Origin: Streptococcus sanguinis
Lineage (GTDB): Bacteria > Bacillota > Bacilli > Lactobacillales > Streptococcaceae
Length of the DNA stretch: 64,000 nucleotides
Direction of reading: 5' to 3'
NCBI RefSeq assembly: GCF_900475275.1
Contig: NZ_LS483364.1
Location: 1,178,001 to 1,242,000 of the forward strand
Shown here: piece by piece, positions 4,056-26,804 of the stretch
Position numbering within the stretch: position 1 is the first letter of the stretch
Layout: each line of letters starts with the position of its first letter
Position numbers and translations under genes: made by a program
The notes under the pieces: generated by a model
The model's input: the letters and a program-made list of their open reading frames with translations, nothing else
Told to the model about the DNA's origin: nothing
The model's database searches: none

Positions 4056-5134
4056 TATTTATTCAGCTCTTCTAGTTTTTGCGTTTGGTCATAGAGAACC
4101 AGAGCGTCAACGACTTCATCCAGTTTGCCAGCTAAAATCGTGTCCAGCTTTTGCAAGGTCAAGCCGATACGGTGATCTGTCACTCGATTTTGCGGAAAAT
4201 TATAGGTGCGAATCCGCTCTGAGCGATCACCTGTACCAATTGTGGACTTGCGCTCTGCATCCTGCTCATCTTGAGCTATTTGAGCAAAGTGGTCTGCTAC
4301 ACGAGCTCGGATGATTTTCATAGCCTTATCCCGGTTCTTCTGCTGAGTACGCTCTTCCTGCATTTCAACCTTGATATTGGTAGGCAGATGGACGATACGA
4401 ACAGCAGTTGCAACCTTATTGACGTTCTGTCCGCCAGCACCAGATGCATGGTAGATGTCAATACGAAGATCTTTAGGATCAATGTCGTATTCTACTTCTT
4501 CGATTTCTGGCATCACCAAGACAGTTGCTGTTGAGGTGTGAACGCGACCTTGGCTTTCGGTTACAGGAACCCGCTGTACGCGGTGAGCGCCAGATTCATA
4601 CTTAAGCTTTGAGTAGACCGACTGACCTGAGACCATAGCGACCACTTCCTTGATCCCGCCTACACCATTATAAGAGGCCTCCATGACTTCGAAGCGCCAG
4701 CCTTGGCTTTCAGCATATTTTTGATACATCTGCAAGAGGTCTCCTGCAAACAACTGCGCCTCGTCTCCTCCTGCAGCCCCGCGGATTTCAAGGATAATAT
4801 TCTTATCATCGTTTGGATCCTTCGGTAAAAGGAGGATTTTTAGTTTTTCCTCGTATTCCTCTTTTTCAGCCTTGGCATCTTTAAGCTCTTGCTTAGCCAT
4901 TTCTTCCAAGTCAGCATCACCAGAGGCGTCTTTTATCATTTCTTCAGCGTCTGTGATGTTTTGCAGGACTTTTTTATACTCGCGGTATGCCGTCACTGTA
5001 TCTCGGGTGCTGGCTTCTTCCTTAGAAAGATCCATAAAACGCTTGGTATCGCTGACCACATCTGGGTCGCTTAGGAGTTCACCAAGCTCTTCGTAGCGAT
5101 CTTCAACCGCTTGTAACTGTTCATAGATGTTCAT
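4055..5134 (-). CDS. prfA: Peptide chain release factor 1
   Basis: RF1 reads UAA and UAG stop codons on the ribosome. The 359-residue protein carries the codon-recognition motif PVT (190-192), typical of RF1 rather than RF2, and the peptidyl-tRNA hydrolysis motif GGQ at 234-236 inside [10 protein letters not shown]. Domain order (N-terminal coiled coil, codon-reading domain, GGQ domain, C-terminal helices) and length are normal. It follows tdk by 35 bases and is coupled to prmC downstream. Confidence 0.97.
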
Positions 5135-5169
5135 AGATTTTTCATCATCTCCTTTTTTCTATCGTTGGA

Positions 5170-5742
5170 TTACTTAATATCGGGGTTAAAATAGTGCTTT
5201 CGGCAGACTGAGATATAGGTCTCGTGGCCGCCAATTTTAATCTGCTCTCCGTCATAAACCGGCTTTCCGTTATCAGTCCGTAAAACCATGGTAGCCTTAC
5301 GAGAGCAATATTGACAAATCGTTTTAATCTCCTCAATCTTGTCAGCCAAGAGCAAGAGGTGCTTGGAGCCTTCAAAAAGTTCATTGCGAAAATCGTTCTT
5401 CAGACCAAAAGCCATAACCGGAACATCCAGCTCATCCACCACTCTAGCCAAATCATAGACATGATGGCGTTTCAAGAACTGAGCCTCATCAATCAAAACG
5501 CAATAAGGTTTTTCAGGCAGTTGCTGGATATAGCCAAAAATATCCGTCTGGTCTTCAATAGCCAGAGCATTCCGCTTCATGCCGATACGACTAGAAACAA
5601 CGCCGAAACCATCGCGGGTATCAACAGCCGAGGTCATGATAACTACGCTCTTGCCTTGTTCTTCGTAATTGTGGGCGACTTTTAAAATCTCAATGGTCTT
5701 GCCCGAATTCATCGTGCCATATTTGTAGTATAACTGAGCCAT
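5170..5742 (-). CDS. tdk: Thymidine kinase (type II)
   Basis: Phosphorylates thymidine with ATP for pyrimidine salvage. The P-loop GTMNSGKT is at residues 9-16, the Walker B-like VLIDEAQFL in the middle, and a zinc-binding CxxC...CxxH set (CQYC, CRKH) near the C terminus, the standard type II layout. The length of 190 residues is typical. It appears to be the first gene of the tdk-prfA-prmC-tsaC-glyA run and is divergent from the tautomerase gene at 5866, with both promoters inside the 123-base gap. Confidence 0.96.
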
Positions 5743-16582: not shown

Positions 16583-18274
16583 CTACTGCTCACTTCTCTG
16601 ATTTTTAAAGCTAACATAGACCACCAGCAGGATAAAGAGCGCCTGACTAACTACCACTTCTATGCTTGGATAAATCCCCATCCAGTCTACTGTCACAAAA
16701 CCATTGATTAAGTGAGTCGGTAGGATATTAGTCAGCTGAAGGGCATGGATGCTGACGCCCAGCATTTTAAAGGCCAAGACATAGATTAGCCAGGTCAGCC
16801 AGAAGAAAATGCTGTGTGGTTTGAGAAGACCAGACGCCTTGCTCATGATAAAGGCCAGCAAGACCAAGACTAGAACAGCCAAGCCGATTCCCAAAAGGAA
16901 ATCAGTCATTGTGATGCGCGGTAGAATTCCCGCATAAAAGAGGATGGTCTCAGCCCCTTCACGGAAAACAGCCAGAAAGCTAAGAGCAAACATGGAAATA
17001 AAACTGCCTGTGGCTGTTACAGCCTTCATTTGGTTTTCCATAAAGTCATTCCATTTTTTGATAGATGCCTTGCTGTGCAGCCAGATACCAACCAATATCA
17101 TCATAGCGACAGCGAAAATTCCCACTGCACCTTCGATAATTTCACGATTGGATCCGGAAGCAACTGCCGGGAAAAGAAACTGCAGCAAAGCTGCAATCAC
17201 AGCACTGGCTAGAACTCCGCTTGCTGCGCCGGCATAAACCCATTTGAGTCCTTTTTTCATCTTTGAAGCTTTCAGAGTCGTTATCAAAGCCATGACAATC
17301 AAGAGCGCTTCTACACCCTCACGTAGCAAAATCAGCATAGCATCAAAAAAATGATAAGAAGCTGTTGTGTCAATCTGTGACAGCTCACTAATCAAGGATT
17401 CTAGCTGCTTTTGATACTTCTCTTCGCTACCCTTGACCATAATAACAGGCGTCTGACTCTCTACCTTGGTATAAAGCGAAGGATTATTGACACTGACATC
17501 TCCTTCTATCGTTGGCCAAATGGTGATGAACTCTTTCATCTTAGCAGCGGCCTTTTTATCATCTCCGCTTTGGAAGAGACTCAAAGCCTCCTCTAGCAGC
17601 TTAATCCCATCTTTCAGCGTCAGATTGCCAGCAGCTTCTTGGACTTTCTCGCCTTTGACAAAATGATCAATGGCGGTTTTCAAATCATCAAAAGAAGACT
17701 GAATCATATCAAAGTCAGTAGGCTCCGTCTCGATGGCGCTGCGCAGGAATGAAATGGCTGTTTCCACCTTGCCGTAATGGGCTGTGCTGTTGTCTCGCAC
17801 CACGCTTTCATTGGTAGTCCAGGTGCTATTCATCTTCTTGTATGCTTCTCGTGTCTCTTCTAAATCCTTAGCGCTAATGGCCTTTTGTAGATTTTCAAAT
17901 TTTGGCTCTAGCTTACTGAGAAGCTTCTTTTTCTCGGCCTCTAAGTCGACTGGATTCTGCTCTTTCTCAAATTTCAAGAGGGCCGAAGAGATCTGTGTCA
18001 GCTTCTCCTCCGTCACCTGACCCGATAAGTCTAGTACCTTGCTTACCTCTTGTCCCGCTGCAGAGTCGTGATTAGCCACCCTATCAAACTCAGTCTTGAT
18101 TTCTCTGACTAACTGCTTGGCTTTTTCCTGGTCCTTCTGCTTGACCGCAGTGCTGGCATCAGTGATTTTGACGAATAAACTGCTGTAGCTCTCGTCCGCT
18201 AAAACCGGCTTAGCTAAAACAACTAGCAAGAGACCCAATATCAACAGACTTTTATTCAAATAATTTTTGACCAA
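16583..18274 (-). CDS. efeU: FTR1-family iron permease with extracellular helical domain
   Basis: The iron-translocating subunit of EfeUOB. A signal peptide (about 1-26) precedes a ~280-residue Lys/Glu-rich extracytoplasmic domain, then about seven membrane helices. The two REXXE ferric-binding motifs are REGVE (318-322) and REGAE (438-442). The fused N-terminal domain makes it longer (563 residues) than E. coli EfeU. It overlaps efeB upstream by 23 bases, with tatC one base downstream. Confidence 0.93.
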   Translation of the reverse strand: MVKNYLNKSLLILGLLLVVLAKPVLADESYSSLFVKITDASTAVKQKDQEKAKQLVREIKTEFDRVANHDSAAGQEVSKVLDLSGQVTEEKLTQISSALLKFEKEQNPVDLEAEKKKLLSKLEPKFENLQKAISAKDLEETREAYKKMNSTWTTNESVVRDNSTAHYGKVETAISFLRSAIETEPTDFDMIQSSFDDLKTAIDHFVKGEKVQEAAGNLTLKDGIKLLEEALSLFQSGDDKKAAAKMKEFITIWPTIEGDVSVNNPSLYTKVESQTPVIMVKGSEEKYQKQLESLISELSQIDTTASYHFFDAMLILLREGVEALLIVMALITTLKASKMKKGLKWVYAGAASGVLASAVIAALLQFLFPAVASGSNREIIEGAVGIFAVAMMILVGIWLHSKASIKKWNDFMENQMKAVTATGSFISMFALSFLAVFREGAETILFYAGILPRITMTDFLLGIGLAVLVLVLLAFIMSKASGLLKPHSIFFWLTWLIYVLAFKMLGVSIHALQLTNILPTHLINGFVTVDWMGIYPSIEVVVSQALFILLVVYVSFKNQRSEQ

Positions 18275-19460
18275 GGTACTCTCCTTTTTTCACTCCACCA
18301 AAGCAAGCAAACAAACCACTACCGATATGCGTGACGTATTCATTCATCTTATCTTGAGCGCCTAGATTAGTTAGAACTTTGACAAAGCTGTCTGGATCTT
18401 TCTGGAAGGAAAGAAAGAGTAAGCCTGTGTCAAATTGACCAGTACTTTCATCAATCCCATCTGAATAAGAATAAGACCGGCGATATATAGGCTTATCAAC
18501 CTCCTTGGCCAAACGGACATGTGAATCCTCTGGCAGCAAGTCTAAGTCAACCTCGTCAAACTCGTCTTTCTTGCCAAAAGGCGCTCCGCTTTCCTTATAG
18601 CGGCCAAAAGTGTTTTCCTGCTCCTGCAGATTGGTCCGGTCCCAGGTCTCAAGGAACATCTGTATTCGGCGGACAGCCATGTAAGAGCCGCCCTGCATCC
18701 AGTCCTTGCTGTCGCACCAAATGACCTTGTCAAAATCTTTTTCCTTGGTCACATTGGCCGTGCCGTCCTTAAATCCAAAGAGATTACGAGGCGTTGACAT
18801 CCGGTCTCCGATAGCTGCAAAGCCTGATTGACTCCACTTCATAGTGATGGCATTTCTGCCCTTGCGGACCAGATTGCGGACCGCATGAAAGGCCACCTGC
18901 TCATCATCTGCACAGGCTTGAATGACAATATCGCCACCAGTATATTTTTCTTTGAGCTGCTCCTTTGGAAATGGCGGCAAATCCCGAAAAGCCTTAGGTC
19001 GTTTGTCTGACAAGCTCATTTTTTTCAGAAAAGAGGCTGAGACACCGAAGGTCAAGGTCAGTCGATAAGGGTTGAGACCGACAGTTTCTCCAGTATCCGT
19101 TGGCGGCAAAAGAGCATTGGAATTATCTTTTTTGACCAATTCTCCATCTACCAACTTCTCGCTATAGGCTGTCCAGTCCTTAAAGAGCTGGATAATGGCT
19201 TCCCTATCTGTCGTATGCAAATCCAACACAACAAAGTAGATATTCTTCTGCATTGGAGTTGTGATCCCCGCCTGATGCTCCCCGTAAAAGCTGATTTCTT
19301 CCTCACCGTCAGCGAATTTCTTATCTTCCTTGGCCTGATTAGCGAAAAAAGCAGATGCACCAGAGACACCCAGTGCAAGACCAGCGCCTCCAATCCCTGC
19401 TTTTTTAAGAAATTCACGACGATCCATCTTTTTATTAAACCATTTTTCGTCGTTTGTCAT
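18252..19460 (-). CDS. efeB: DyP-type heme peroxidase, Tat-exported
   Basis: A heme-dependent peroxidase exported folded, working with EfeO and EfeU in iron or heme-iron acquisition at low pH. The twin-arginine signal MDRREFLKKAG (RR at 14-15) is followed by a Gly/Ala-rich hydrophobic stretch. The catalytic motif GFKDGTANV and the C-terminal HIGSGLFACFGG segment are present. Length (402) fits the EfeB class. It starts 4 bases after the efeO stop. Export with its cofactor explains the adjacent tatAC. Confidence 0.94.
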   Translation of the reverse strand: MTNDEKWFNKKMDRREFLKKAGIGGAGLALGVSGASAFFANQAKEDKKFADGEEEISFYGEHQAGITTPMQKNIYFVVLDLHTTDREAIIQLFKDWTAYSEKLVDGELVKKDNSNALLPPTDTGETVGLNPYRLTLTFGVSASFLKKMSLSDKRPKAFRDLPPFPKEQLKEKYTGGDIVIQACADDEQVAFHAVRNLVRKGRNAITMKWSQSGFAAIGDRMSTPRNLFGFKDGTANVTKEKDFDKVIWCDSKDWMQGGSYMAVRRIQMFLETWDRTNLQEQENTFGRYKESGAPFGKKDEFDEVDLDLLPEDSHVRLAKEVDKPIYRRSYSYSDGIDESTGQFDTGLLFLSFQKDPDSFVKVLTNLGAQDKMNEYVTHIGSGLFACFGGVKKGEYLGQKLFE

Positions 19461-19464
19461 ATGA

Positions 19465-20337
19465 TTACTCCCCGTTTAGAATGACTCCCATTTGTGAAAG
19501 AGGCTCACCCAGTTTGGTCACTGCTTCTGCCAACTCTTTGGTGTCTTCCTTTGTCAATTCTGTATAGAGCTTGTAGTTTTCCGAGTCAGTCATGTGCTTG
19601 TCTAAAAGACCATTGACGTTTTTAAACTCAAGTTCCAGGGTCTTGACAAGTTTCTCGTCCTTATCCTTAATCAATGGCTTAAAGAGCTCAAAAATCTTTT
19701 CTGCTCCTTCAATATTCGCACGGAAATCATAGAGATCTGTATGGGAGAATACTTCTTCTTCACCTGTAATCTTGCTGGTCGCTACTTCATTGAGCAAGTC
19801 AACAGCACCTGTCAGCATCATATCCGGTGTCACTTCAACCGTTGCGATTTTAGCTTTTAGCTCCTTTATATCATTGACCAGCTGATCAGCATAGCTTTCA
19901 GTTCCCTTGGTTGTGTTTTGCTCCCATATGATTTTTTCAATACGGTGGAAACCAGACCAACCTTCTTCGGTCTTGTTTTCGTCCACATAGTCGACCAAGC
20001 GGAAGTCAATTTTAACATCTGATTCACCAAAGCTCTCAGCAATCGGCTCCGAGCGCTCGTAGGCCATACGGATAAGCGGATATTGCTTTTTAGCCTCATC
20101 AAGCTTGCCTTCTTTAAGGGTATCACGAAACTTCTCCGTATCTGTCAGGAGCTGATCGATTTGTCCTTGGACAAACTTTTTATAATCCGCTGTCGCCTTG
20201 TCCAATTCTTTCTGATTGACAGCTGTTTGGCTGCTGGATGCTTGACTGCTTGAGCCAGTCTTGTTTGAAGAGTTGTTGGCTGCACAGCCAGTCAGTAAAA
20301 TTGCCGTTGAAAATAGGACGATGCCAAGTTTTTTCAT
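19465..20337 (-). CDS. efeO: EfeO/EfeM-type imelysin lipoprotein
   Basis: A surface lipoprotein thought to bind iron for the EfeU permease. The signal peptide ends in the lipobox LLTGC (Cys18), followed by a Ser/Asn/Gln linker and a helical imelysin (M75-like) domain with the GFHRIEKIIWE motif. There is no N-terminal cupredoxin domain, so it is the short EfeM type (290 residues). It is the first gene of efeO-efeB-efeU-tatC-tatA and has its own strong promoter. Confidence 0.92.
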   Translation of the reverse strand: MKKLGIVLFSTAILLTGCAANNSSNKTGSSSQASSSQTAVNQKELDKATADYKKFVQGQIDQLLTDTEKFRDTLKEGKLDEAKKQYPLIRMAYERSEPIAESFGESDVKIDFRLVDYVDENKTEEGWSGFHRIEKIIWEQNTTKGTESYADQLVNDIKELKAKIATVEVTPDMMLTGAVDLLNEVATSKITGEEEVFSHTDLYDFRANIEGAEKIFELFKPLIKDKDEKLVKTLELEFKNVNGLLDKHMTDSENYKLYTELTKEDTKELAEAVTKLGEPLSQMGVILNGE

Positions 20338-22161: not shown

Positions 22162-23538
22162 TTATTTAGCGCGCAAAGCTGCTTGAGTGATGTAGTTGTA
22201 CGGTTTGTTGAAGTGTGGCAGGAAGAAGAGATCCAGCAAGGCTAATTTATCAATTGTAACCTTTTCCTGAATGGCCAATGAGAACATGTGAATACCCATA
22301 GACATATCTTCTCTAGAAACCATCTGAGCTCCAAGAACTACACGTGTATCCTTATCATAGACAATCTTAATTGTTACATCATGATGCTCAACCTTTTCAA
22401 GGAAGGTTGGTTTTTGAGTATCTTTAAACTCAACTACAGCTGGGCTGTAACCAAAGCGTTTAGCTTTTTCTTCTGTCAGACCAGTTGAAACCATCTTCAG
22501 ACCAAAGATTTCGATACCGTTAGAACCTTGAACACCGTTAGACTCCAATTCATGACCGCAAGCATTATGAGCTGCTACGATACCAGAGCGCAGGGCGTTA
22601 GAAGCCAAAGCAATGTAATTTATATCATTGATAGAGTTATCGTAAACAGTCGCACAATCACCAATTGCATAAACATCTTTGATGCTAGTTTCTTGCTTCT
22701 TATCTACCAAGAAAGCACCATTGCGGAATGTTTCCAGCTTGCCGGCACCAAGACCAGTGTTTGGACGGAAGCCAACTGCTAAGACAACCATATCTACATC
22801 ATAGCTAGCCTTATCTGTTACAATGCGTTCTACCTTGCTTTCACCCTCAATAGCCTGAACAGTTTGACCGAAGGCTAATTGAACACCATTATCTTCAAGG
22901 TTTTGACGCATCATATCAGACAAGTCGTGGTCATAATAACCAGCCAAGCAAGTATCCACAACGTCAATCAGAATCACTTCTTTACCAAGGCGTTTGAAGG
23001 CTTCTGCCAACTCAACCCCAATGTAACCAGCACCTACTACTGCCACACGTTCGATATGTTTGCTCTTGTCTTGCAATTTCTCGATAACATCTGCAGCATT
23101 TTGATACAATTTTACGAACTGCAGATTTTCCAAGGTTGACTTAAATTCGCGGCTGTTAGGATCCAGCTCAGCACCTTTAATCGGAGGCAGAATTGGCTGA
23201 GAACCTGTTGCTAAAATTAATTTGTCATAAGACTCTACATGCTCTTTGCCATCAACAATAGCTGTAACTTTTTTCGCATCATAATCAATTGACTCAACTG
23301 GTGAATTCATATAAACTTTTGCGCCTTTTGCTTCAAAAGTTTCTTTATCTGCATAAAAAAGTCCATCTGGCTTGCTGATTTGCTGTCCAATCCAAAGGGC
23401 CATTCCGCATGCCAAGAATGAAATGTTTGAGTTTTGGTCAAAAATAACTACTTCGTTTTCTGCACCATAATTGTCCAACATTGTATTAATACACGCTGTA
23501 CCTGCGTGGTTTGCACCAACTACAACGATTTTACTCAT
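22162..23538 (-). CDS. nox: H2O-forming NADH oxidase
   Basis: A flavoprotein that reduces O2 to water with NADH, regenerating NAD+ in aerobic growth. The FAD motif VVVGANHAG, the redox-active Cys44 in FLACGMALW and the NADH motif [10 protein letters not shown] are in place. Length (458) is standard. It is monocistronic between two terminators/promoters and divergent from apbE. A perfect cre covers the -35 region, which suggests CcpA control. Confidence 0.93.
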
Positions 23539-23575: not shown

Positions 23576-23604
23576 AGTATATCATCTCCTGTGAGCGTTT
23601 ACAA
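23576..23604 (-). promoter_or_regulatory. nox promoter
   Basis: TTGTAA (23599-23604) and TATACT (23576-23581) are spaced by 17 bases, with TGA before the -10. Confidence 0.75.
23590..23604. promoter_or_regulatory. cre (CcpA) site over the nox -35 box
   Basis: TTGTAAACGCTCACA on the minus strand matches every fixed position of WTGNAANCGNWNNCW. Overlap with the -35 implies repression when CcpA is bound, though only binding data can show this. Confidence 0.7.
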
Positions 23605-23729: not shown

Positions 23730-23758
23730 TTGTGAAACCGGTATCTTTTTGATATAAT
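23730..23758 (+). promoter_or_regulatory. apbE promoter
   Basis: TTGTGA (23730-23735) and TATAAT (23753-23758), 17 bases apart with an extended TGA, about 40 bases before the GTG start. Confidence 0.75.
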
Positions 23759-23796: not shown

Positions 23797-24732
23797 GTGG
23801 ACTTTGCTTCTCGCTCGCTTCATTTGATGGGAAGTACAATTTGTCTCTCTCTCTATCATGAGCGAGCGGAAATACTCTTAGATGAGGCTGTCCAACTGCT
23901 TCATGTCTATAAAAATCGCTTCAGTGCCAATGATGAAGACTCTGAACTTATGAGTATCAATCATCTGGCAGGAATTGAAAGCATCTCAGTTCATCCAGAG
24001 CTTTTTGAGCTGATTGAGCTGGGGAAATATCACAGCCAAGCAGAAGGCAGCCACTTAAATATCACGATTGGCCCTCTCGTCCAGACCTGGCGGATAGGAT
24101 TTTCAGACGCCCGTCTCCCAAGTAGGGAGGAGATTCAGCAAGCTCTAAGTCTGACCGACCCAAACTTGCTTGAGTTGAATCCAGAAGATTGTAGTGTCTT
24201 TTTGACTAAGAAAGGCATGAAGCTGGATTTAGGTGCCTTGGCTAAAGGCTATATCGCTGATAAGATTAAAGACTATTTGCTGAGTCAGGGAGTGACCTCT
24301 GCTCTTATCAATCTTGGTGGCAATGTCCTGACAATTGGGCATAATGCAGTCAGCCAGCGTGCCTGGCGAATTGGTATCCAAAATCCCAAGCAGCCTCGCG
24401 GCAATCACTCAGCTATACTAGCGGTCACCAATCAGTCAGTGGTCACATCAGGAATCTACGAGCGAACCCTTACAGTTGAAGGGCAGAACTACCATCACAT
24501 TCTGGATCGCAAAACAGGTTATCCTATCGAAAATCAATTGGCTAGTCTGACCATTGTTTCAGACAAGTCGGTAGATGGCGAAATTTGGACAACTCGCCTA
24601 TTTGGTGAAAGTCCGACATCAATTCTGTCCCAGATTGAACAGCAGACAGGGATCGAAGCATTGATTATCACCCAAGACGATCAGATCTTCTGTAGCTCAG
24701 GACTTTTAGAGCAGATAATTCCTGCTTCTTAA
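23797..24732 (+). CDS. apbE: FAD:protein FMN transferase, cytoplasmic form
   Basis: Transfers FMN from FAD to a Ser/Thr of acceptor proteins through a phosphoester bond, using Mg2+. Family motifs are MGSTICL (11-17), LDLGALAKGY (about 143-152), INLGGN (171-176) and HHILDRKTGYP (233-243). There is no lipobox, signal peptide or membrane helix, so this copy should act in the cytosol. The start is GTG at 23797. It is the first gene of a plus-strand cluster; the protein two genes downstream carries two candidate acceptor motifs in its tail. Confidence 0.92.
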   Translation: MDFASRSLHLMGSTICLSLYHERAEILLDEAVQLLHVYKNRFSANDEDSELMSINHLAGIESISVHPELFELIELGKYHSQAEGSHLNITIGPLVQTWRIGFSDARLPSREEIQQALSLTDPNLLELNPEDCSVFLTKKGMKLDLGALAKGYIADKIKDYLLSQGVTSALINLGGNVLTIGHNAVSQRAWRIGIQNPKQPRGNHSAILAVTNQSVVTSGIYERTLTVEGQNYHHILDRKTGYPIENQLASLTIVSDKSVDGEIWTTRLFGESPTSILSQIEQQTGIEALIITQDDQIFCSSGLLEQIIPAS

Positions 24733-24889
24733 TTATTTGCTACCTCACTATGCGGTAACTCTGTCGCTCTAGCTTTTATAACTAATGCCCATTTAAAAAC
24801 GCCCTCTCTTTCTTCTGGTTTTTACCTGCCTCAAGAAAAATAAATGTACACATGAGGGCTCTGTATCTTAATTTCAGAAAGGAAATTTT

Positions 24890-25495
24890 ATGTTAAAACT
24901 TATTGCAATTGTTGGAACAAATTCTAAACGTTCTACAAACCGGCAACTTCTTCAATATATGTCTAAGCACTTTGCTGATAAGGCTGAAATCGAGCTGGTA
25001 GAGATTAAAGATATCCCAATGTTTAATAAACCTGCTGACAGAAACGTGCCTGAGTTGGTATCAGAAATTGCCCAAAAAATCGATGCAGCAGACGGAGTAC
25101 TCATTGGAACACCTGAGTACGACCACTCAATCCCGGCTGTGCTCATGAACGCCCTAGCTTGGCTTTCTTATGGTATTTATCCACTGCTGAACAAGCCAGT
25201 CATGATCACTGGTGCTTCTTATGGTACACTTGGCTCCTCTCGTGCCCAGTTGCAGCTCCGTCAAATTTTGAACGCTCCAGAAATCAAGGCAACTGTTCTT
25301 CCAGATGAGTTCTTGCTTTCGCATTCTCTTCAAGCTTTTGACCAAAGCGGAGACTTGGTAGATCTTGACGTTGTCAAAAAGTTAGATGCTATCTTTGATG
25401 ACTTCCGTATCTTTGTCAAAATCACTGAAAAATTGCGCAACGCACAAGAATTGCTTCGCAAAGATGCTGAAGAATTTAACTGGGAAAAATTGTAA
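24890..25495 (+). CDS. NADPH-dependent FMN reductase-like flavoprotein
   Basis: A 201-residue flavodoxin-fold protein of the FMN_red family. It has the phosphate-loop region GTNSKRSTNRQLL (9-21) and the family motif GTPEYDHSIPAVLMNAL, followed by MITGASYGTLGSSRAQ. It should bind FMN and take electrons from NAD(P)H. It lacks the PAS domain and tail of its neighbour. A clear AAAGGAAA ribosome site precedes the ATG. It lies 157 bases after apbE and 17 bases before the next gene, so the two reductases are one transcript. Confidence 0.88.
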   Translation: MLKLIAIVGTNSKRSTNRQLLQYMSKHFADKAEIELVEIKDIPMFNKPADRNVPELVSEIAQKIDAADGVLIGTPEYDHSIPAVLMNALAWLSYGIYPLLNKPVMITGASYGTLGSSRAQLQLRQILNAPEIKATVLPDEFLLSHSLQAFDQSGDLVDLDVVKKLDAIFDDFRIFVKITEKLRNAQELLRKDAEEFNWEKL

Positions 25496-25512
25496 GATAG
25501 GAGACCGAAAGA

Positions 25513-26757
25513 ATGAAATTTGTTGGAATTGTAGGATCAAACTACGAACAGTCATACAACCGAAAATTATTGGAATTCATCCGCCGTCAATTCAAAATTA
25601 AATTTGAATTGGAAGTCTTAGAAATCGATGAAGTCCCAATGTTTAACCAAGATGAAAAATGGGATGAAAGCTTCCAATTGCGTTATTTGTATAACAAAAT
25701 CACACGTGCAGACGGTGTCATTATCGCAACCCCTGAGCACAATCATACTATCAGTGCTCCTTTGAAGAGTGTCTTAGAATGGCTCTCTTATGAGGTTCAT
25801 CCTTTCGAAAACAAGCCTGTCATGATTGTCGGTGCATCATACTACGATCAAGGAACTTCTCGTGCTCAAGTTCACCTGCGTAAAATCCTAGACGCTCCTG
25901 GTGTCAATGCTTACACCCTTCCAGGCAACGAGTTCTTGCTGGGCAAAGCCAAGGAAGCTTTTGACAATGATGGCAATATCACCAACGAAGGAACTGTGAA
26001 TTTCCTTGAAACATGCTTAGATAACTTTATCAAATATGTAGAGGTCGTTTCAAAATTGAAAAAACCAAAACCAATTGAACCTGAAGATTTAGACTGCGGA
26101 AAACCAATCGCTACGACAATTACAGAAGTTGATCCAGATGATCCAGAATGGGTAGAAAAGGTCGCTGAAATCACTGGCGCTGTTTCAGGCGATACTTATG
26201 TCAAACTTGACCATGGTATCTTGACAGTTAACCAGATTGACATGTTCTTGAAGGCTATGCCGTTTGAATTGACATACGCTGACGATAACAACCAATTCCT
26301 TTACTACAACAACGCCCACCAAGACCCAGACACCATGTTTGCCAAACGTGTGCCACCTCAATCAGGTAGCCGCATGTCAACTGTTCACGGCTCTCTTCCA
26401 CCAGCTCGGATGAAGAATGTAGAGTGGGTTATCGGAACACTTCGCAACGGAAACCAAGAATACGTACGTACAATCGTCCCAGGTTCACCTGCAGGCGTTA
26501 TCAATACCCACAACTACCAAGCTATGTACTATCCTGACGGATCATACGCAGGAATCAATGAAATCGTCTTTAATTTCCAACCATGGCTTGACTGGTACTT
26601 AAAAGAAACTGGTCAACGTTTGGTTGGAGGCAGCGGACAATTTGCTCCTGCCGGAGGTCATGGAGACGCAGACGCTACTTCTGGTGCTTCTGATGCTGGA
26701 GGCGATGGAGGTCATGGAGACGGAGGAGCCGATGCGACATCAGGTGCTAGCGCTTAA
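25513..26757 (+). CDS. FMN reductase fused to a PAS-like domain and a flavinylation-motif tail
   Basis: A 414-residue three-part protein. Residues 1-180 are an FMN_red domain (IVGSNYEQSYNRKLL; ATPEHNHTISAPLKS; GASYYDQGTSRAQ). Residues about 232-366 resemble the PAS domain found in DUF438-type proteins (MPFELTYADDNNQFLYY; NFQPWLDWYLKETGQ). Residues 372-414 are a Gly/Asp/Ala tail with two copies of DATSGAS (387-393 and 407-413), each preceded by GGHGD. The repeated motif fits the ApbE acceptor pattern, with the predicted FMN sites at Ser393 and Ser413. There is no signal peptide. Cotranscription with a plain FMN reductase and proximity to apbE support a flavin relay. The function is inferred and the substrate unknown. 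Confidence 0.88.
   Translation: MKFVGIVGSNYEQSYNRKLLEFIRRQFKIKFELEVLEIDEVPMFNQDEKWDESFQLRYLYNKITRADGVIIATPEHNHTISAPLKSVLEWLSYEVHPFENKPVMIVGASYYDQGTSRAQVHLRKILDAPGVNAYTLPGNEFLLGKAKEAFDNDGNITNEGTVNFLETCLDNFIKYVEVVSKLKKPKPIEPEDLDCGKPIATTITEVDPDDPEWVEKVAEITGAVSGDTYVKLDHGILTVNQIDMFLKAMPFELTYADDNNQFLYYNNAHQDPDTMFAKRVPPQSGSRMSTVHGSLPPARMKNVEWVIGTLRNGNQEYVRTIVPGSPAGVINTHNYQAMYYPDGSYAGINEIVFNFQPWLDWYLKETGQRLVGGSGQFAPAGGHGDADATSGASDAGGDGGHGDGGADATSGASA
26671..26751 (+). other. Two predicted ApbE flavinylation sites in the reductase tail
   Basis: DATSGAS is encoded at 26671-26691 and again at 26731-26751. Both fit D-[GA]-x-[ST]-G-A-[ST], where the last Ser/Thr receives FMN in known ApbE targets. Modification here is a prediction. 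Confidence 0.65.
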
Positions 26758-26771
26758 TTACCTTTCAAACT

Positions 26772-26804
26772 AAAAAGAATGGATGATAAGTCCATTCTTT
26801 TTTG
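26772..26804. terminator. Bidirectional terminator between the flavin cluster and tlpA
   Basis: AAAGAATGGA-TGATAAG-TCCATTCTTT with flanking A and T runs gives a 10-bp perfect stem usable by both converging transcripts. Confidence 0.85.

Follow-up and report, generated by a model that had tools for sequence, protein, structure and literature searches.

Which protein does a flavin transferase modify when it carries no signal for export and is the only enzyme of its kind in its genome? The question is raised by three consecutive genes in a 64,000-nucleotide (nt) stretch of Streptococcus sanguinis DNA (assembly GCF_900475275.1, contig NZ_LS483364.1, positions 1,178,001 to 1,242,000; hereafter the window). 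They encode an ApbE, that is, an enzyme that transfers flavin mononucleotide (FMN) from flavin adenine dinucleotide (FAD) onto protein, a bare FMN_red protein, and a second FMN_red protein that continues into a PAS_10 domain and a C-terminal tail. An earlier note on the window had described the ApbE as lacking an export signal, and our analyses confirmed the three open reading frames (ORFs) and found neither a lipobox nor a hydrophobic N-terminus in the ApbE, which was the sole PF02424 match of the genome. Our comparisons indicate that the PAS-fused protein is likely a multi-site substrate of a cytosolic group of ApbEs that have a glutamate at the position of Asp301 of FmnB.

In Pfam searches the ApbE matched PF02424 over the full length of the profile (1–266; E 4.1e-79, 266.3 bits against a cut-off of 25.6) and the bare FMN_red matched PF03358 (E 5.7e-36, 119 bits against 24). 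The tailed protein matched PF03358 (E 1.8e-34, 123.8 bits against 24) and, further along, PAS_10 (PF13596; E 7.4e-21, 75.2 bits against 22.1). The PDB relatives of the bare FMN_red were ChrR/YieF (3svl) and FerB (3u7r). The PAS part of the tailed protein matched 2qkp by sequence and in Foldseek (E 2.1e-11, TMt 0.84), the VIA-align structural match of this protein being one that covers mainly residues 1–184. Its AlphaFold2 (AF2) model had a predicted local distance difference test score (pLDDT) of 81.5, with residues 375–414 disordered (pLDDT < 50).

The tail is an array of putative flavinylation motifs

The earlier note had described two exact DATSGAS motifs in a tail behind the PAS domain, and both Pfam and the translation confirmed this arrangement, with the last serines at residues 393 and 413. 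Each copy conforms to the ApbE acceptor motif D-x-x-[ST]-G-A-[ST]. The codons of the two copies differ at 5 of 7 positions, every change being synonymous. When this tail was shuffled, two strict motifs (D..[ST]GA[ST]) arose with a frequency of 1e-5. Searched at the DNA level, D[GA]x[ST]GA[ST] had four matches in the whole genome (two in a backward control), two of which were this tail; the others were not true motifs, one ending in a TGN codon (judged by eye) and one reading DANTGAR.

We studied the tails of 51 relatives from diverse loci, one per genome (L132–L182), and found 90 strict motifs against a shuffled mean of 0.31 and a maximum of 3 in 2000 shuffles. Eleven of these tails had no strict motif, eight had one, 18 had two, ten had three and four had four, such that at least one was present in 40 of the 51. 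A loose form of the motif (D-x-x-[ST]-[GSA]-A-[ST]) occurred at least once in 50 of the 51, and the remaining tail (L169) bore DAGASAS-like repeats. The tails of L141, L143, L146, L149, L151, L153, L159, L165 and L171 read D-x-x-[ST]-S-A-[ST], with no strict SGA[ST]. Among 80 named streptococcal loci the strict count was two in 72, one in four, three in three and zero in one (L098), which carries DATASAS and DATSSAS. In a set of 246 FMN_red-PAS proteins, chosen from 360 by length and PAS string, 245 had a loose and 216 a strict motif; the exception ends within a motif-like stretch. No motif was found in the bare FMN_red partner (0/52). The mean top-residue frequency in the alignment was 0.81–0.82 for the motif blocks, 0.82 for FMN_red (residues 1–150) and 0.74 for PAS, compared to 0.15–0.19 for the linkers around the motifs. 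The tail is kept by selection as a motif array, beyond chance.

Tailed proteins occur with a probably cytosolic ApbE group

The order-wide domain search suggested in the earlier note bore out an association of tailed FMN_red-PAS proteins with apbE. Within the Streptococcaceae, 86 of 147 genomes had an FMN_red-PAS protein, and all 86 had an ApbE, compared to 51 of the 61 others. The protein was present in 80 of 96 Streptococcus genomes, including an interrupted copy in G138 and a copy in G139 that has an internal stop. Outside this genus, two genera gave five full-length matches and a partial one (G070). The gene in G138 is split into overlapping ORFs (L183:4014-4556 and 4528-5259), either an interrupted copy or a sequencing error. 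Across the Lactobacillales, 175 of 395 genomes had the protein and all 175 had an ApbE, versus 178 of the 220 others (Fisher p 3e-12, which overstates the case as the genomes are related and not independent). Proteins were called in the order survey at E up to 1e-89, a proxy for full length that misses multi-PAS proteins, so that G177, G394 and G427 were counted with the 220 others though ApbE-positive.

At the level of the locus, the fetched stretch included apbE at 78 of the 80 named streptococcal loci, at 36 of the 40 sampled across the order and at 7 of 12 more from the Streptococcaceae. Some of the linked genes (L138, L162, L165, L168) were downstream or in the other direction. All 40 order-wide genomes were ApbE-positive, and the four lacking a linked apbE carry a short ApbE (308–318 amino acid frame) elsewhere. 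Motif conservation and this linkage together support the claim that the tail is an ApbE acceptor, which would give the only ApbE of the S. sanguinis genome a likely substrate.

The locus-linked ApbEs are likely cytosolic, based on their N-termini: a lipobox was absent from all 42, in which N-terminal hydrophobicity peaked at no more than 1.67. The corresponding figures for 31 unlinked ApbEs, the best-scoring ones, were 24 lipoboxes and a maximum of at least 1.81 in all. Two exported ApbEs (L214, L215) have a flavinylation-like motif (DVTTGAS, DTVSGAS) between the signal region and the ApbE core, as if self-flavinylated, and those of L196 and L202 have E-variants of it.

The closest PDB relative of the window ApbE was the FAD:protein FMN transferase 7esa, which has FmnB spacing (236 bits). 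The catalytic triad of FmnB is Ser257-His273-Asp301 (PMC12052999). In the window ApbE Ser257 and His273 are kept, and the Asp301 position is Glu (DGD to DGE, in a GEIWTTRLF motif; +16 and +44 from Ser). Of the 47 locus-linked ApbEs from L132–L189, 40 have Glu (seven unreadable; 5 of the 40 read by eye), as do 78 of 78 named streptococcal ApbEs and 3 of 3 from a genus with triple-PAS proteins described below; the unlinked ApbEs had Asp in 27 of 31 (four unreadable; 6 of the 27 by eye).

The activity of ApbEs on such tails has a precedent. Two Lactococcus FMN_reds (L. lactis / L. taiwanensis) with C-terminal motifs were flavinylated when co-expressed with the cognate apbE in Escherichia coli, and the modification required the Ser/Thr of the site, being lost on its mutation (Huang et al. 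2024, PMC11334425). Since the ApbEs next to short Lactococcus-type relatives in our sample (L187, L189) also have Glu, the Glu-type ApbE is probably active, provided that the published Lactococcus ApbEs belong to the same type.

The two FMN_red proteins resemble subunits of one enzyme

In Lactobacillus johnsonii, the paralogues FRedA and FRedB must form a heterodimer to bind FMN and to be active; the two FMN sites, exposed to solvent, are at the subunit interface, the affinity for FMN is weak (Kd 2 µM), and the purified enzyme is under-loaded (PMC4500961). It is NADH-specific, with a Km for FMN of 20 µM and 0.56 hydrogen peroxide (H2O2) formed per NADH, and quinone reduction was not seen in the assays described (PMC4500961). 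Its pocket residues are Thr9 and Asp75 in FRedA and Ser9 and Gln75 in FRedB (PMC4500961). Compared by eye with this description, the bare FMN_red of the window has the A-type Thr10 and Asp (in PEYD), and the tailed protein has the B-type Ser9. Gene adjacency, these residues and the tree below agree in presenting A- and B-type paralogues side by side, and the first FMN_red most likely takes the FRedA role in a heterodimer. The earlier note had electrons passing from NAD(P)H through non-covalent FMN to FMN on the tail. A path from NADH to FMN_red flavin to tethered flavin would still be the most economical, but the first FMN_red would be part of the enzyme and not a step in a chain.

One branch (support 100/90) of an unrooted tree of 71 FMN_red domains separated the 31 bare partners from the 40 flavin-bearing domains (26 PAS type, 6 HcrB-like and 8 short-tail). 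The PAS-type rows were the window and 25 loci hand-picked from the 51; the partner of L144 (ORF > 240 amino acids) was omitted. The HcrB-like rows were not a single clade, with L186 placed apart, and both sides of the tree include the pair whose second member is HcrB-like. A tree rooted with other FMN_reds of the S. sanguinis genome was unusable, its outgroup branches having 9–10 changes per column. Because of the split, the bare and covalent-flavin-bearing FMN_reds seem to be an old pair, probably passed on jointly and combined with one or another downstream module; duplication as a pair is a possible reading of the tree.

A second pair, in some Streptococcaceae, has a bare FMN_red beside a protein of ~750–830 amino acids with the order FMN_red-FMN_bind-FAD_binding_2 (Pfam on L184 and L191, 2 of 6 streptococcal ones), and these pairs adjoin the PAS type in the tree. 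HcrB presumably has the same three domains, and PAS domains bind small ligands. Such a relationship raises the possibility of an enoate-like reductase in the window, in which the PAS domain would bind an organic acceptor, as HcrAB of L. plantarum reduces hydroxycinnamates (PMC10295242). We consider this very unlikely: a Pfam scan at E up to 1 found neither FMN_bind nor FAD_binding_2 in the tailed protein, no FMN_bind domain was found in the genome, and the PAS fold has no recognisable substrate-reducing site.

PAS domains and motif-bearing linkers repeat together

The PAS and the tail mostly go together. The sample was searched for the case that the earlier note had held to be damaging, a missing tail with apbE linkage kept, and it was not found: six tail-less FRedA/B pairs that lack a fused PAS had no motif, and none had apbE in the 5.5–6 kilobases fetched (6/6). 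Three of their genomes (G184, G266, G315) were not among the ApbE-positive ones. Among the exceptions to the joint occurrence of PAS, tail and apbE were two lone tail-less FMN_reds (L230, L231), each with an ApbE in the genome and none in the locus.

Three proteins of ~890 amino acids from one genus (L232:2497-5145, L233:3317-6001, L234:2607-5270) combine an FMN_red domain with three PAS repeats behind it. The linkers between the repeats carry motifs, seven to nine of the loose form per protein, and each of these genes is adjoined by those of an ApbE and a bare FMN_red. Two proteins of 711–712 amino acids (P0267, P0275) contain two PAS domains and a partial third, again with motifs in the linkers. 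In addition, a stand-alone PAS protein of 207 amino acids ends in DAVSGAS (L228:2354-2977), in a genome where no FRedB-like protein was found beyond a weak FMN_red match.

These proteins bear on whether the tail serves only to hold a cofactor. Huang et al. read their Lactococcus FMN_red in this way, with the tail modelled near the flavin site (PMC11334425), and the weak, incomplete FMN loading of FRedA/B would be remedied if the FMN of the tail were an unlosable prosthetic group of the FMN_red pocket(s), with two motifs, the commonest number, filling the two pockets of a heterodimer and no separate carrier. A range of one to four motifs, and of seven to nine in triple-PAS proteins, does not match two pockets, however, and extra motifs accompany extra PAS copies, or even a PAS domain on its own. 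We regard this explanation as rather improbable. The same proteins led us to speculate that alternating PAS domains and flavinylated linkers form a cytosolic array, a tethered electron store or conduit that would be fed by the FMN_red heterodimer, with each PAS docking flavins and a dedicated Glu-type cytosolic ApbE making it. The array is a doubtful proposition at present. If true, it would be a soluble intracellular multi-flavin relay, unlike the extracytosolic settings described for multi-flavinylated proteins.

The PAS domain has an invariant His292 (73/73) and a nearly invariant His333 (70/73). Its repetition together with motif linkers would also suit a redox sensor, in which the tethered FMN would sit in the PAS domain and, by its redox state, gate heterodimer assembly or activity, placing NADH oxidation under oxygen control. 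In L. johnsonii, active FRedA/B forms more slowly in the presence of the separate protein LjPAS, whose gene is repressed when oxygen is absent (PMC4500961), and an engineered LOV protein keeps its photocycle when its FMN has been tethered by ApbE (PMC10722498). Against a sensor, there is no output domain, the AF2 model assigns the tail no position, and a two-PAS protein with no motif exists. LOV-type light sensing was rejected because LOV photoreceptors have a photoactive cysteine in the PAS core (PMC10722498) and residues 229–356 of the tailed protein contain none. Overall, we think a sensor decidedly unlikely. Among the matches listed, the DUF438/PAS_10 literature offered nothing useful.

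A tethered flavin as the proposed substrate of a cytosolic reductase

We slightly favor the reading that the three genes form an operon for an NADH-dependent flavin oxidoreductase, soluble and cytosolic, that belongs to the FRedA/FRedB type and whose PAS-fused B subunit would bring its own covalent FMN as substrate or carrier to oxygen (O2) or another acceptor. Based on the motifs, the linkage and the experiments on relatives, the adjacent ApbE would transfer FMN from FAD onto Ser393 and Ser413. The bare and the tailed FMN_red would assemble, by homology with L. johnsonii, into a heterodimer, and NADH would reduce the FMN in its two solvent-exposed interface sites. The tethered FMN, at a millimolar local concentration, could then replace the free FMN used by the L. 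johnsonii enzyme and carry electrons off to O2 or another acceptor. We estimated 1–23 mM from a Gaussian chain with assumed persistence length and distances, far above the Km of 20 µM. By analogy, the acceptor may be O2. The PAS domain might dock the tethered flavin or a ligand and so tune assembly or electron exit.

Several findings weigh against this reading. L. johnsonii FRedA/B is active with no tail, PAS fusion or covalent flavin (PMC4500961), and the tail is therefore dispensable for the chemistry. The number of motifs, from one to four and higher still in triple-PAS proteins, gives no fixed stoichiometry. A protein of 405 amino acids with two PAS_10-like domains (L229:1622-2839) has no motif in a genome (G225) with an ApbE, and apbE was outside the fetched stretch in 5 of the 12 further Streptococcaceae loci, whose genomes each have two to four ApbEs. 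The triad Asp is replaced by a conserved Glu in this group of ApbEs, and the tailed protein has Asn77 in place of Gln75 of FRedB. Lastly, mutants in SSA_1114 to SSA_1126 kept H2O2-mediated competition, given as "data not shown" in the source (PMC4862721). Counting from nox as SSA_1127 and an iron-transport lipoprotein as SSA_1129, one would arrive at SSA_1126 to SSA_1124 for the three genes, and if this numbering holds the operon would not be the main H2O2 source.

The locus makes the function addressable in most streptococci (80 of 96 sampled) and many other Lactobacillales, including Enterococcus, Vagococcus and Ligilactobacillus. It further suggests that flavinylation of proteins is widespread in the cytosol and has an ApbE group of its own, and the natural series from no tail through one to four sites to repeated PAS-tail modules would be suited to asking what a tethered flavin does in an oxidoreductase.

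Gene arrangement and putative regulation

The positions of the features are given in Table 1. The earlier note had also proposed that the two FMN_red genes are cotranscribed after apbE. The three genes are indeed in a row, and the 17 nt between the FMN_red genes suit cotranscription, but the first of them starts 157 nt after apbE, and two weak terminator-like matches are near the apbE 3' end (5 in the scanned region versus 3.1 expected from shuffles). Cotranscription is a prediction here. Promoter-like sites numbered 9 in the scanned region versus 6.6 expected from shuffles.

Table 1. Features of the apbE–FMN_red locus and its surroundings (positions in the window).
Feature	Position	Strand	Basis
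nox, H2O-forming NADH oxidase, divergent neighbour	22162..23538	-	NCBIfam NF046103, 759.6 bits
cre-like site, exact, nearer nox	23590-23603		match to cre consensus
Promoter-like TTGTGA-17-TATAAT, TG before -10, ahead of apbE	23730..23758	+	10/12 matches
cre-like site overlapping apbE promoter, 1 mismatch	23733..23746	+	match to cre consensus
apbE, signal-less FAD:protein FMN transferase, 311 amino acids, GTG start	23797..24732	+	Pfam ApbE
Bare FMN_red, FRedA-like partner subunit, 201 amino acids	24890..25495	+	Pfam FMN_red, PDB relatives, tree
FMN_red-PAS_10-tail protein, FRedB-like, 414 amino acids	25513..26757	+	Pfam, AF2 model, fold matches
FMN_red domain of tailed protein, residues 1-181	25513..26055	+	
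PAS_10 domain of tailed protein, residues 229-356	26197..26580	+	Pfam, Foldseek, conservation
Gly/His/Asp/Ala-rich tail, residues 367-414	26611..26754	+	AF2 model; linker conservation 0.15-0.19
Putative flavinylation motif 1, DATSGAS 387-393, presumed acceptor Ser393	26671..26691	+	
Putative flavinylation motif 2, DATSGAS 407-413, presumed acceptor Ser413	26731..26751	+	
Terminator-like hairpin 3' of FMN_red-PAS gene, 13 pairs	26772..26802	+	

The divergent nox was a neighbour in 73 of the 80 named streptococcal loci. In a scan with a cre consensus, 71 of 73 divergent nox-apbE intergenic regions had at least one cre-like site with at most one mismatch, exact in 64, and such a site arose in 2.2% of shuffles of the window region. 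SSA_1127 is listed among predicted CcpA operons that were undetected in expression data, and RegPrecise has a cre prediction for nox (PMC6904348). A Rex operator near the apbE promoter was rejected, every site having at least 5 mismatches. No paper was found that joined two or more of the gene tags SP_1470-1472 or SPD_1298-1301, and SSA_1124-1126 led to one paper. Iron-uptake genes (EfeU-like, Dyp-type peroxidase with a Tat signal, and EfeO) are located near nox at 16583-20337 on the minus strand.

Comparison with known systems

The window shares with the L. johnsonii system two adjacent FMN_red genes, a ChrR/FerB-like fold, the A and B pocket signatures (by eye) and a PAS partner (PMC4500961). 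In L. johnsonii, however, FMN is bound non-covalently and the PAS forms a protein of its own, whereas in the window the PAS is fused, a tail with ApbE motifs is added and apbE is a neighbour. The term "ApbE" is absent from the available text of PMC4500961, which noted PAS-FMN reductase fusions in other species in 2015 and names Lp2732 and EF1227 in a figure among homologues or fusion partners. An ApbE is reported at EF1225 (PMC7074142), two numbers ahead of EF1227, and this fits the gene order of the window.

The published Lactococcus FMN_reds resemble the tailed protein in a C-terminal extension with one or two ApbE motifs and an associated apbE, but differ in that a PAS or a second FMN_red is unmentioned, and the term "PAS domain" absent, in the available text (PMC11334425). 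The short relatives at L187 and L189 likewise have neither. HcrA/HcrB also combines a bare FMN_red with a larger FMN_red-containing protein (PMC10295242); there the larger protein presumably has FMN_bind and FAD_binding_2, and the acceptor is organic, in contrast to the PAS and tail of the window. In Klebsiella a cytoplasmic, signal-less ApbE modifies a soluble fumarate reductase (cited in PMC12052999), a cytosolic flavoenzyme as here but a different substrate protein.

The earlier note had found an FMN_red-PAS protein with acceptor sites unfamiliar. That holds for the combination: no description of a tailed PAS fusion as an ApbE substrate was found in our literature searches and the available main text of PMC11334425, PMC12052999, PMC8238504 and PMC4500961. 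It does not hold for the parts, as both halves have been published, FRedA/B and PAS fusions in 2015 (PMC4500961) and flavinylation of FMN_red tails in 2024 (PMC11334425). What looks new within the searched literature is the union of the two, together with the ApbE group and the repetition of PAS-flavin modules; it connects work on the H2O2-forming, PAS-linked NADH:flavin reductases known from lactic acid bacteria with that on flavinylation by ApbE.

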